This document shows, in pieces, positions 5,362 to 9,616 of a stretch of 64,000 bases of DNA. Location of the stretch: positions 276,404 to 340,403 of the forward strand of contig JAHDVK010000001.1 of assembly GCA_023384675.1 (NCBI GenBank). The letters are read 5' to 3'. Every line of letters begins with the position of its first letter. Position 1 is the first letter of the stretch. The notes under the pieces are model-generated. The model was not told the DNA's origin, made no database searches, and saw nothing but the letters and a program-made list of their open reading frames with translations. The translations under genes were made by a program, and so were the position numbers. This DNA comes from Bryobacteraceae bacterium (lineage in GTDB: Bacteria > Acidobacteriota > Terriglobia > Bryobacterales > Bryobacteraceae).

Positions 5362-5397
5362 TGTAAGTAATTTATTTGCAATATCTTACAGTTGCAA
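5362..5397 (+). promoter_or_regulatory. Nested inverted repeats upstream of the Co/Ni transporter operon
   Basis: TGTAAG (5362-5367) is mirrored by CTTACA (5385-5390) with 17 bases between. TTGCAA, itself palindromic, occurs at 5376-5381 and again at 5392-5397. The block is A/T-rich in a G+C-rich genome and lies about 160 bases before cbiM. Spaced 6-base arms separated by 13-17 bases are the format of NikR-type operators in other bacteria, but the arm sequence does not match a consensus I can name. Regulation by a metal sensor is inference. Confidence 0.35.
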
Positions 5398-5553: not shown

Positions 5554-6132
5554 ATGCATATAGCGGATGGCATCCTCCCCGTTGGTTTCAGCGCGGCCGC
5601 GGGTGCGGTGTCGCTTGCCGGGACGGTATGGTGGGGCCGCGGCGTGCACAACGGCGAGGTGGCGCGCATGGGGCTGATGGCCTCGACGCTCTTCGCCGCT
5701 TCCCTCATCCACATCCCTCTGGCCGGTACGTCCGTCCACTTCAGTTTGCTGGGCCTGGCGGGGATTCTACTCGGCGCGCGCGCGTTCCCCGTGGTTTTTG
5801 CGACCCTTCTCATGCAGTCGCTGCTGTTCCAGCATGGGGGACTTCTGAGTCTGGGGGTCAACGCGTTGAACATGGGCGCCGGCGCGCTGGTGGCTGCTGC
5901 CTTGTGGCGGTGGACGCCTGGCGCCATGCGGCCCCGGGTGTTTCTGTGCTCTTTCAGCGCCACAATGACAGCCGCCATGCTGATGGCCGCCGAATTCGCC
6001 GCCGCCGGCTATGGCAAAGGGTTTTACTGGGTCGCGGGCGTGTATAGCCTGCTGGCGTTACTGGAAGCGGCGCTGACCGTGATGATCGTCGATATCGTTC
6101 GCCGCGTTCGGCCGGAGGTGGTCCCCGCATGA
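5554..6132 (+). CDS. cbiM: Cobalt/nickel ECF transporter substrate-binding subunit CbiM
   Basis: A 192-residue, mostly hydrophobic membrane protein with five to six predicted TM helices. It starts with MHIADG, matching the family's N-terminal MHIxDG, whose amino group and His2 bind Co2+ or Ni2+. The segment SLIHIPLAGTSVHFSLLGLAGILLG is also typical of CbiM/NikM. It forms the S component of an energy-coupling factor importer with CbiQ and CbiO downstream. Its stop overlaps the next start (ATGA 6129-6132). Whether cobalt or nickel is the substrate cannot be decided from sequence; no cobalamin synthesis, hydrogenase or urease genes lie in the window. Confidence 0.9.
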   Translation: MHIADGILPVGFSAAAGAVSLAGTVWWGRGVHNGEVARMGLMASTLFAASLIHIPLAGTSVHFSLLGLAGILLGARAFPVVFATLLMQSLLFQHGGLLSLGVNALNMGAGALVAAALWRWTPGAMRPRVFLCSFSATMTAAMLMAAEFAAAGYGKGFYWVAGVYSLLALLEAALTVMIVDIVRRVRPEVVPA

Positions 6133-6569
6133 TGTTTCGTACTCTCACATTCCTGGCGCTGCTGAGCGGTATGTTGTGCGCCCATGACATGGAACTCCAG
6201 GTCGAGAAGCAGCCCAACGCCGTCGCTGTCCGTTTCGGCTATGGCCCGGAGGATCCGGCGAAAGCCGCTCCGGTCACCGTGTTTTCGCCCGCGGATGCCA
6301 TGGCGCCCTTCCAGACCGGCCAGACCGACCAGCGCGGTGTCTTCGTTTTCGCGCCCGACCGCCCGGGCGTCTGGCGCGTCATCGCCGACGACGAGGAAGG
6401 GCACCGTGAGGAGGCGCGCGTCGAAGTCGCCGAAGATGGGGCCGTCCATTTCCACGCCCATAGCCATTCGCGGGGAGGCACGCTGCTGACGGGGCTTTCC
6501 GTCCTGTTCGGCGTCACCGGCATCGCGTTGTGGTGGTCCGGGCGCAGGCGGGGCGGCGTGTCCGTGTGA
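6129..6569 (+). CDS. CbiL/NikL-like accessory membrane protein of the Co/Ni transporter
   Basis: A 146-residue protein with an N-terminal signal-like segment (TLTFLALLSGMLCA), an extracytoplasmic beta-rich domain, a His-rich stretch (VHFHAHSHSRGG) and a C-terminal TM helix (LLTGLSVLFGVTGIALWW). The order signal, soluble domain, TM matches the additional component (CbiN/CbiL/NikL-like) found between CbiM and CbiQ in group I ECF importers. The His cluster could bind metal. Both ends overlap neighbours by four bases (ATGA with cbiM, GTGA with cbiQ), which is strong evidence for one operon. Confidence 0.75.
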   Translation: MMFRTLTFLALLSGMLCAHDMELQVEKQPNAVAVRFGYGPEDPAKAAPVTVFSPADAMAPFQTGQTDQRGVFVFAPDRPGVWRVIADDEEGHREEARVEVAEDGAVHFHAHSHSRGGTLLTGLSVLFGVTGIALWWSGRRRGGVSV

Positions 6570-7312
6570 TCGGTCTACGTGTGGAAAAGCTGGCGGAAGG
6601 CCACGGCTGGCTGCACCGGCGCGCGCCGGAGGCCAAAATCGCCGCTTTTGCCCTGATCACGCTCATCATCCTCAGCGAAATGAGCTTCTCTGTTGGGCGC
6701 ATGGCCGCCTACGCCGCCATCACCTTGCTGCTGATTCTGAGCGCGCGCCTTCCGCTGTCGCTCTTCGCCCGGCGCGCGCTGCTGACGGCGCCCATCCTGT
6801 TGCTCGCCGCCGCGCTGCCCTGGATTTCCAGGAAGCTCGGCGAAAGCGCCGCCGCCGGACCGGACCCGCGCCTGCTGCTCGCCAAGGGCCTTTTGGCCGT
6901 CTGTCTGCTGACGCTGCTTGCCGCGTCCACGCGCTTCCCGGATCTGATCGGCGGTCTTGAAAAGCTGCGAGCTCCGGCGGTGCTGCGCCTGCTGGCCGGC
7001 CTCATGTATCGATATGTGCCGCTCCTGCGCGATGAATGGGATCGGATGGAAGTCGCGCGCCGCAGCCGCACGCCCGGCGAGCCGCGCCGCCGCCCGCTCG
7101 CTCTCATTGCCCGTCAGCTCGCCAACCTCTTCCTGCGCGCCTGGCAGCGCGCCGACCGCGTTCAGGCCGCGATGGAGGCCCGCGCGTTCACCGGCCGCTG
7201 GCCGCGCGCGGCCGGCCGCGCGTTCACAGGCGGCGACGTTTTGTTTCTATGGAGTTCCGTGACTCTGGTGCTGCTCGTTCGCGCTTCGGAGGTCCTGCGG
7301 CATGGGGTCTGA
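6566..7312 (+). CDS. cbiQ: ECF transporter T component CbiQ
   Basis: A 248-residue membrane protein. It contains the coupling-helix motif of EcfT proteins in the form RRSRTPGEPRR, close to the usual Ala-Arg-Gly repeat, and the conserved LLAGLMYRYVPLLRDEWDRMEVARRSR region. Several hydrophobic helices occur at about residues 20-40, 45-62, 72-88 and 105-122, with one at the C-terminus. The start is taken as GTG 6566, which overlaps the previous TGA as GTGA; a GTG further upstream (6530) would overlap by 40 bases. It transmits ATPase movement from CbiO to CbiM. Confidence 0.88.
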   Translation: MIGLRVEKLAEGHGWLHRRAPEAKIAAFALITLIILSEMSFSVGRMAAYAAITLLLILSARLPLSLFARRALLTAPILLLAAALPWISRKLGESAAAGPDPRLLLAKGLLAVCLLTLLAASTRFPDLIGGLEKLRAPAVLRLLAGLMYRYVPLLRDEWDRMEVARRSRTPGEPRRRPLALIARQLANLFLRAWQRADRVQAAMEARAFTGRWPRAAGRAFTGGDVLFLWSSVTLVLLVRASEVLRHGV

Positions 7313-8072
7313 AGCCTGCGGACTGCCGGTGGAGATCGAGAATCTGACGTTCGCCTATCCGGGCCAGCCGGAGGCTCTGCGCGGACTCGACTGGAGGGTC
7401 CCGGCCGGAGCGCGAGTGGGTCTACTAGGCGCTTCCGGTGCGGGAAAATCGACGCTTTTACTGCATTTGAACGGCATTCTTCGTCAAAAAAGCGGCAAAA
7501 TTCGCATCGGAGAAACGCTGGTCGAAGAACGGACGCTGGCCACGATCCGCCGCGATGTCGGCCTGGTGTTTCAGAACCCGGACGATCAACTGTTTCATCT
7601 TTCCGTGGCCGAGGACATCGCCTTCGGCCCCCGCAACCTGGGCTGGTCTGAATCCCAAGTCCAACAAACCATTCAGGAAACCGCCACCGCGCTGAGGCTG
7701 GAAGGGCTGCTCGACAAGCACCCGCAGCAGCTTTCCTCCGGCGAAAAGAAGCGCGCCGCCCTGGCGACGGTTCTCGCCATGCGCCCGAGGGTAGTTGCGC
7801 TCGACGAACCGTTCGCGAATCTCGATCCAGCGCTGATCGAACAGCTGATCGGCTTGATTCACGGGCTTTCCGCCACGGTGATCCTGATTTCGCAGTCGAT
7901 TCTGCCGGCGCTGGCATGCTGTTCCACACTCGCGATCCTCGATCAGGGGCGGATCGCCGCGGAGGGCCCGGCGTACGAAATCGCGCGAGATCGCGCGCTT
8001 TTGGGGCGCTGCGGGCTTGATTTTCACTACTACCGCGACGTGTGGCGCCGGCTGGAAACGGCCGGGGGCTAG
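7302..8072 (+). CDS. cbiO: ECF transporter ATPase CbiO, with altered switch histidine
   Basis: A 256-residue ABC ATPase. Visible motifs are Walker A GASGAGKST, Q-loop VFQNPDDQLF (typical of CbiO), signature LSSGEKKR, Walker B VVALDEPF and D-loop ANLDPA. At the switch position the usual TH[DE] is replaced by S-Q-S (VILISQSILPAL; Gln198), so the catalytic histidine seems absent. All other motifs are intact. The start overlaps the end of cbiQ by 11 bases. The protein should power Co/Ni uptake, perhaps with reduced hydrolysis or with a different residue serving as switch. The operon has only one ATPase gene, so it would act as a homodimer. Confidence 0.92.
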   Translation: MGSEACGLPVEIENLTFAYPGQPEALRGLDWRVPAGARVGLLGASGAGKSTLLLHLNGILRQKSGKIRIGETLVEERTLATIRRDVGLVFQNPDDQLFHLSVAEDIAFGPRNLGWSESQVQQTIQETATALRLEGLLDKHPQQLSSGEKKRAALATVLAMRPRVVALDEPFANLDPALIEQLIGLIHGLSATVILISQSILPALACCSTLAILDQGRIAAEGPAYEIARDRALLGRCGLDFHYYRDVWRRLETAGG

Positions 8073-8305: not shown

Positions 8306-9616
8306 ATGAGAACAACTACCAGCCAAACCGTGGCGCCGCCCGCCCGGCCGTCGCATAGGAAGACGGCGGTAATTGGACTGGTCTGCCTGCTCAGCGCGTG
8401 GGGCGCGGTGTTGAGTGTCAGGGAAACGCCTCTGGGGGCGGGGAGTCCGTTGGCGGGGACGCTGGCTGTGCCCGCGGGAGGTGAGGGCGAGCAAGAGCAG
8501 GGCGGGCCGCGTCTGGTGTACCCCTATAGTGTGATCCCTGGCGGGGTGACGAGCGCCGGTGAGCTTGAGGCCGCGGTGGAAAACGATCCCGTAGTCCGCG
8601 AGCACTACCGGGGGTTCAACTTGCGGAAGGTTCGGGTTAAAACCCTCGAAAATGACCGTTTTGCGTATGTTTCCTACCGCGTGAAGGGCAACGTTTACTG
8701 GACGAAGAACAAGCTCCGGCTGGCGCAGGGCGAAAAGGTACTCACGGATGGGGTGAATGTGGTGCGGGCGCGCTGCGGGAACCGGGTCTCGGACGCACCG
8801 ATGGCCGGGGTGAGCCTGCTGGAGCCCCCGGAGGCGGTTTTCGATTCGCCGGTGCTGCCGGCGCCGCTTCGGGCGATGAGCACGCCGCCGCCGCCGGTGG
8901 AAGTGGCGGAAGCGCCGCCCATCGAAGCGGCGCCAGTTCCGGCGGTGGTCCCTGTGCCGGGCGCGACGCCCGGTGGACCGGGAGCGTATCTGGCGTTCCT
9001 CGGCAATCCTTTGGGGCCGGGTGGCGCGCCGATTTCTCCGCCGGGCGCGGCGCCGCCGCCTGGAGGACCGGGCGCGCCGCCGCCGGTGACGCCGCCGGTG
9101 CAGCCGCCGCCACCCCCGGCGCCGCCGGGCACGCCGCCGGGCGGACCTCCTGGCACACCGCCGACGACACCTCCGGGCACGCCGCCGGGCGGGCCTCCGG
9201 GGACACCGCCATCGAGTCCGCCGGGAAGTCCTCCGGGGCCGCCACAAACGACGCCGCCGGGCACTCCTCCGGCGACGCCGCCGCCGACTCCTCCTGGCCT
9301 GCCACCGGGCACGCCGAGCGCGCCACCTCCGCTCGGCCCTCCGGGCGTGCCGCCATCCACACCTCCAACGACGCCACCGGTGGAGCCGCCTGCGCCGCCG
9401 CCCTCGATCTTCGAGCCGCCTTCGCCGGAGGGACCATTCCCGCCGGGACCGCCGCCGCCTTCGGACCCGCCGGGTGTGGATCCGCCGGATCCGCTTGCGC
9501 CGCCGGATATTCCGCCACCTCCGCCGACGCCCATTCCGGAGCCGTCGACTTACGCGATGATGGCGGCGGGATTGGCGGTGCTGGCCGCGGTGCACCAGCG
9601 GCGTCGAGCGCGGTAG
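8306..9616 (+). CDS. PEP-CTERM-type surface protein with long Pro/Gly-rich stalk
   Basis: A 436-residue secreted protein. An N-terminal signal anchor is seen at about 21-40 (TAVIGLVCLLSAWGAVLSV). A globular domain of about 120 residues (50-180) contains VYPYSVIPGGVTSAGELEAAVENDP. Residues about 195-405 are a low-complexity stalk built from PPG, GTPPG and PPTPPG units. The C-terminus is PIPEPSTYAMMAAGLAVLAAVHQRRRAR, a textbook PEP-CTERM signal: PEP motif, hydrophobic helix, basic tail. Exosortase would cleave and anchor it to the envelope; no exosortase gene is in the window. A Gly-rich open frame on the opposite strand is an artefact of the biased codons. Confidence 0.85.
   Translation: MRTTTSQTVAPPARPSHRKTAVIGLVCLLSAWGAVLSVRETPLGAGSPLAGTLAVPAGGEGEQEQGGPRLVYPYSVIPGGVTSAGELEAAVENDPVVREHYRGFNLRKVRVKTLENDRFAYVSYRVKGNVYWTKNKLRLAQGEKVLTDGVNVVRARCGNRVSDAPMAGVSLLEPPEAVFDSPVLPAPLRAMSTPPPPVEVAEAPPIEAAPVPAVVPVPGATPGGPGAYLAFLGNPLGPGGAPISPPGAAPPPGGPGAPPPVTPPVQPPPPPAPPGTPPGGPPGTPPTTPPGTPPGGPPGTPPSSPPGSPPGPPQTTPPGTPPATPPPTPPGLPPGTPSAPPPLGPPGVPPSTPPTTPPVEPPAPPPSIFEPPSPEGPFPPGPPPPSDPPGVDPPDPLAPPDIPPPPPTPIPEPSTYAMMAAGLAVLAAVHQRRRAR

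Follow-up and report, generated by a model that had tools for sequence, protein, structure and literature searches.

A CbiO-type ATPase encoded in a Bryobacteraceae genome carries glutamine, Gln198, in place of the switch (H-loop) histidine, the residue that contacts the gamma-phosphate of ATP, and it belongs to a clade of CbiO proteins that have a glutamine switch and are the only ATPases of their operons. From comparison of the sequences in this clade, Gln198 probably serves as a working gamma-phosphate sensor in a motor that would be hydrolytically active. The gene lies in the window, by which we mean the whole 64,000-nucleotide stretch of DNA analyzed here. In those portions of the literature that were searched, no description of glutamine at the CbiO switch was found, although a published account may exist elsewhere.

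The ATPase gene is part of a compact cbiM-nikL-cbiQ-cbiO operon on the forward strand of the window, in which successive genes overlap by a few bases. The substrate-binding membrane component, cbiM/nikM (5554..6132; Pfam CbiM, E 1.6e-40), is overlapped by a nikL-like accessory component at 6129..6569, for which the only NCBIfam family matched was the NikL family NF058648 (E 5.7e-19; 68.8 bits against a cut-off of 100) and no Pfam match was found. The T component, cbiQ/nikQ, is encoded at 6566..7312 with a GTG start overlapping the nikL stop (Pfam CbiQ, E 1.3e-27; NCBIfam TIGR02454, 92.3 bits against a cut-off of 111.8). The 256-residue cbiO/nikO ATPase at 7302..8072, assigned from its ORF, motifs, families, and structural match to 5X40, is the only ATPase gene of the operon. 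It scored 186.9 bits with the NCBIfam cbiO model TIGR01166, under the curated cut-off of 211.8, and was also under the ECF_ATPase_1 and ECF_ATPase_2 cut-offs. Since NikL, CbiQ, and CbiO all score below the NCBIfam cut-offs, the system is a divergent one. Nevertheless, an S component (CbiM) and a T component (CbiQ) stand beside the ATPase, as in ECF-type operons, and the M, Q, and O genes, with the nikL-like gene as a tentative L, correspond to those of the NikKMLQO nickel systems described in part of PMC2667541, from which the window operon differs in the NikL and CbiQ scores and in that no nikK was identified in it. The operon most likely encodes a NikL-containing ECF importer, with nickel or cobalt as the predicted metal. 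No Rfam match of any kind was present at gathering score in the window, and thus no riboswitch evidence for cobalt, and 12 related loci (of 40 fetched) gave four tRNAs and nothing else. An inverted repeat, TGTAAG...CTTACA, at 5362-5390, about 165 bases 5′ of cbiM, is a candidate operator for a metal regulator. Directly downstream, at 8306-9616, is a proline-rich ORF whose C-terminus resembles a PEP-CTERM sorting signal.

Apart from the switch, the window CbiO has the motifs of an ABC ATPase, as the first-pass annotation had reported. Sequence and alignment place Walker A (GASGAGKST) at residues 43-51 (7428..7454), the Q-loop glutamine, Gln91, at 7572..7574, the signature (LSSGE) at residues 144-148 (7731..7745), and Walker B with the D-loop, VVALDEPFANLD, at residues 164-175 (7791..7826), this last stretch containing D168 and E169, the D-loop NLD, and Phe171, a marker of the clade. 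The Q-loop is followed at residues 92-97 by NPDDQL, which fits the X-P-D/E-X-Q-hydrophobic motif given for the ECF Q-helix in a passage of PMC6828968. The switch motif reads S197-Q198-S199 (7890..7898), with Q198 encoded by CAG at 7893-7895 and no histidine on either side, and phmmer alignments set it opposite the T-H-D of Rhodobacter capsulatus CbiO (5X3X, 5X40). In an AlphaFold2 model made from a 26-row alignment (mean pLDDT 93.7), Q198 comes directly after strand 192-197 and before helix 200-206, and in this model it is in the place of the H-loop. Sequence, alignment, and model agree on the S-Q-S for T-H-D that had been read from the DNA initially. The best structural match found by Foldseek was the R. 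capsulatus CbiO dimer with bound ATP analogue, 5X40 (VIA: Z 33.4, 249 aligned, rmsd 3.2, 41% identity). The CbiO of R. capsulatus CbiMQO (5X3X, 5X40, 5X41), the single ATPase type of a cobalt ECF importer, shares the fold, the motifs, and the ECF Q-helix with the window protein, whereas its switch is T-H-D and threonine rather than phenylalanine follows DEP. Because the window protein sits inside the CbiO tree despite the missing histidine, it is filed as a CbiO/NikO variant and not as a canonical member.

The alignment of homologues that the first-pass annotation had proposed was assembled from the window genome and 40 relatives, 237 genomes from its family (among them its own), 396 from the phylum, 142 from the class to which an Aminicenantes genome belongs, and the best 80 matches among GTDB contigs, a survey that covers Acidobacteriota densely and other groups sparsely; with the best 80 contig matches kept, other glutamine lineages may be missed. 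Among the matches listed, the switch residue of 170 aligned CbiO sequences was glutamine in 38 and histidine in 132, with no other residue. The 38 glutamine sequences come from 38 genomes, all read S-Q at the switch, and use CAG (33) or CAA (5) for the glutamine, and the position that follows it varies (E 14, D 11, Q 8, S 4, A 1). Sequences left out of the 170 were duplicates (L084, L085, L168, L206, L208, L164, L165, and L194-L199), other ABC types (L201-L203), L200 (His), L049 (His, partial with an internal stop), L076 (Gln, truncated just past the switch), and L179, which looked degenerate; adding L200, L049, L076, and L179 gives 134 His, 39 Gln, and 1 Tyr. The tyrosine belongs to L179, a CbiO homologue that also has glycine for the catalytic glutamate and a seemingly dead site. 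One row, L097, had threonine by pairwise alignment and histidine by MAFFT, and the MAFFT reading was used. In the window genome, the switch residue of 45 other ABC ATPase matches was His in 41 and Gln, Ala, Arg, and Ser in one each, indicating that a glutamine switch is unusual there and not unique. The further glutamine is in an exporter-like ABC domain (L261, G000:C17:8432-9028) with T-S-Q-N at the switch, LSPGQ, and DECLDHLD.

The operon context is shared by most of the glutamine loci. In 25 of the 37 loci examined, cbiM, nikL, cbiQ, and cbiO occur together, and among the remaining 12, 11 stop at a contig edge. The twelfth, L230 (G113:C1:777900-790600), is on a 6.2-Mb contig and had no cbiM, nikL, or cbiQ within 6 kb of its glutamine cbiO. 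Gene order differs from the M-L-Q-O of the window in L222, L225, L227, L229, L232, L238, and L239, where nikL is antisense between cbiO and cbiM-cbiQ.

A CbiO tree was built from all 38 glutamine rows and 50 of the 132 histidine rows, picked by hand, with the switch columns removed. A single clade of 40 rows with 100/99 support took in all 38 glutamine rows together with two histidine rows, L033 and L034, whose genomes are of the same genus as that of the window. Two changes would suffice for this pattern, a single gain of glutamine from histidine and a single return. The CbiM+CbiQ tree likewise nests the L033 and L034 operons, and the arrangement of genes in them (cbiO, antisense nikL, cbiM, cbiQ), common to the glutamine operons L222, L225, L227, L229, and L232, favors nesting within the glutamine clade. 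The two histidine members also keep all four marks of the clade. The first of these, Phe171 after DEP, was present in 38/38 glutamine sequences and in none of 130 histidine sequences outside the clade, and Asn173, Ser197, and Asp240, each likewise present in all 38, were found in 21, 16, and 5 of the 130, respectively. When the glutamine rows were constrained to group together, CbiO by itself gave no rejection (p = 0.31) and four genes gave a borderline result (p = 0.0545), and for this reason the reversal to histidine in L033 and L034 is graded as probable despite the nesting. One operon of the clade, L089, is on a 5-kb contig labeled Bacteroidetes; a sample of 148 other genomes from its class, which is larger, gave no match at E <= 1e-80, and L089 may be a transfer or a misbinning.

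The residues on which catalysis depends are kept along with the glutamine. Lys49 of Walker A, Asp168 and the catalytic Glu169, and Ser145 and Gly147 of the signature were unchanged in all 38 glutamine sequences. Close pairs are under purifying selection, with dN/dS of 0.06-0.26 in all seven glutamine pairs for which dS could be estimated (an eighth was saturated) and 0.11 in the histidine pair L033/L034. Taken together, the intact motifs and low dN/dS make the glutamine cbiO genes look like functional, working genes. The highest value, 0.26, belonged to the pair from the L213-L215 subgroup, a branch (families f45 and f90; operons L252, L253, and L254) that has the Q-loop glutamine changed to glutamate and the D-loop aspartate changed to asparagine or histidine, extra changes that could reflect relaxation.

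The cases of LivF and TAP1 mean that a glutamine switch is already known, beside a partner with histidine. LivF of E. coli and the LivF-like T. maritima 1JI0 resemble the window CbiO in pairing a glutamine switch with a catalytic glutamate (Q196 and E164 in 1JI0, from a table of PMC1885854). E. coli LivF differs in having glutamate in the Q-loop and alanine in the D-loop, and is encoded beside LivG, which has a histidine switch and asparagine in the D-loop. LivF and LivG form a heterodimer. The window protein is not a LivF, given its 29% identity to the E. coli protein, its neighbors CbiM and CbiQ rather than a LivGHM operon, and its best families and structures, which are ECF/CbiO ATPases. 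A Q-loop glutamate and a non-Asp D-loop are shared with LivF by L213-L215 and not by the window protein, a parallel that is suggestive only, since L213-L215 are one branch and a Q-loop glutamate is also found in one histidine row, L188. TAP1, among the degenerate-site exporters, similarly has glutamine at the switch (Q701, in the same table of PMC1885854) and differs from the window protein, which keeps Glu169, in having D668 for the catalytic glutamate; its partner is TAP2, and an excerpt of PMC12422388 identifies the TAP2 site as the active one of the two.

Glutamine can hydrogen-bond and cannot relay protons. As a working sensor in a CbiO homodimer, Gln198 would replace the switch histidine in both sites, where it could hydrogen-bond the gamma-phosphate of ATP and hold Glu169 and the D-loop of the partner in place, and Glu169 would position the attacking water so that hydrolysis is retained. 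This reading is favored by the exception known from MRP1, in which His-to-Gln and His-to-Asn changes in NBD2 left transport wild-type-like while other changes nearly abolished it (Yang and Chang 2007, as given in part of the review PMC7756269), and by the likening of the H-loop histidine to the conserved glutamine of RecA in sections of PMC6222333, where the results for Pdr5 are also noted as departing from the usual loss of activity. LivF, an ordinary importer subunit with a glutamine switch and the catalytic glutamate in place, speaks for it as well. Retention of the swap by a whole branch also makes a working alternative likelier than either faulty sequencing or a defective protein. Counting against it are the losses seen with His-to-Ala at the switch, to <0.1% activity in HlyB (Zaitseva 2005, second-hand from those sections of PMC6222333) and to abolished hydrolysis in NsrF (a passage of PMC7494861), as well as computation on HlyB that assigns the histidine a role in proton transfer and favors a relay (PMC6222333, same sections). 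The motif changes of L213-L215 and the lack of cbiM, nikL, and cbiQ near the L230 gene also count against a working sensor, and the probable return in one lineage suggests that histidine may be favored in some settings. The first-pass annotation had implied that the glutamine is an oddity or a defect, an implication that is not supported, given the fixation of the residue across a broad clade, purifying selection, and the MRP1 exception.

A stronger version of the working-sensor reading, possible but somewhat doubtful, is that the clade has an alternative ABC active site. The homodimer would hydrolyze ATP with no switch histidine in either site, proton relay would not be essential, and L213-L215 would be further altered in the manner of LivF; as the three positions that differ in LivF are changed in them too, a histidine-free route would on this reading have evolved at least twice.

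The main rival to a working sensor is a slow or timer ATPase, in which glutamine binds ATP and the dimer closes but hydrolysis is much slower than in a histidine enzyme, as might suit low-flux import of a trace metal. We regard this as unlikely, although substitutions of the histidine mostly cut hydrolysis in the cited parts of PMC6222333 and PMC7494861 and the branch of L213-L215 has accumulated further motif changes. The MRP1 exception in PMC7756269 argues in the other direction, while conservation and purifying selection suit an efficient enzyme equally and are not decisive.

The first-pass annotation had also held that ABC ATPases with a substituted switch are usually slow or act as heterodimers. 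The heterodimer rule fits LivF with its histidine-bearing LivG, and the glutamine clade looks like an exception to it. For the clade, a heterodimer would pair glutamine CbiO with a histidine-bearing ABC ATPase encoded elsewhere, which may be an unrelated one; LivF and TAP1, which have such partners, speak for this, as do 9 of the 38 glutamine-bearing genomes (among 40 scanned) with further matches at E <= 1e-45 elsewhere, most of them far weaker and one, in G659, of full-CbiO grade (261.6 bits). We nonetheless consider it highly improbable. No second CbiO gene was found in the window operon or in the other glutamine operons examined; the ABC gene that adjoins cbiO in L221, L222, and L229 has a T-H-H switch and is of a different sequence type, and L243/L086 has a partial ABC match about 4 kb away. 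In 29 of the 38 genomes there was a single match at E <= 1e-45, although several genomes are incomplete and some second copies may be missed. The window genome is among the 29, its next best match having 35% identity and E 2.6e-25, so that the early statement of a lone operon ATPase extends to the absence of a second CbiO-grade match in the genome, and neither operon nor genome gave a canonical partner at that threshold. With a sole operon ATPase and no second match in 29 of 38 genomes, the glutamine CbiO is likely a homodimer with glutamine in both sites, by analogy with the solved CbiMQO.

We give scarcely any credence to the catalytic work having moved elsewhere, for example to Ser197 or residue 199: Ser197 is fixed in the 38 glutamine sequences, but serine also precedes histidine in 16 of the 130 histidine sequences outside the clade, and residue 199 is variable. 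A sequencing error at 7893-7895 or a decaying gene has a negligible chance and is rejected on the recurrence of glutamine in 38 of 170 sequences and 38 genomes, the use of both CAG and CAA, and dN/dS well below 1. A nearby histidine taking over the switch role, the other objection anticipated at first pass, is likewise rejected, as the window protein has none at either flank and the residue after the glutamine is never histidine in the 38.

For annotation, these results warn that glutamine at the switch should not be taken as the mark of a dead ATPase. Mutants mostly test the loss of the residue, whereas this clade is a natural and long-lasting replacement of the histidine, one that seems to affect each site of a homodimer. 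The sections of PMC6222333 cited here present the role of the histidine, as proton shuttle or as hydrogen-bonding linchpin, as disputed, and a part of PMC6703430 calls the switch histidine of LptB essential. Since histidine-bearing members are probably nested within the clade, comparison of the glutamine enzymes with these natural histidine relatives would bear on that dispute.
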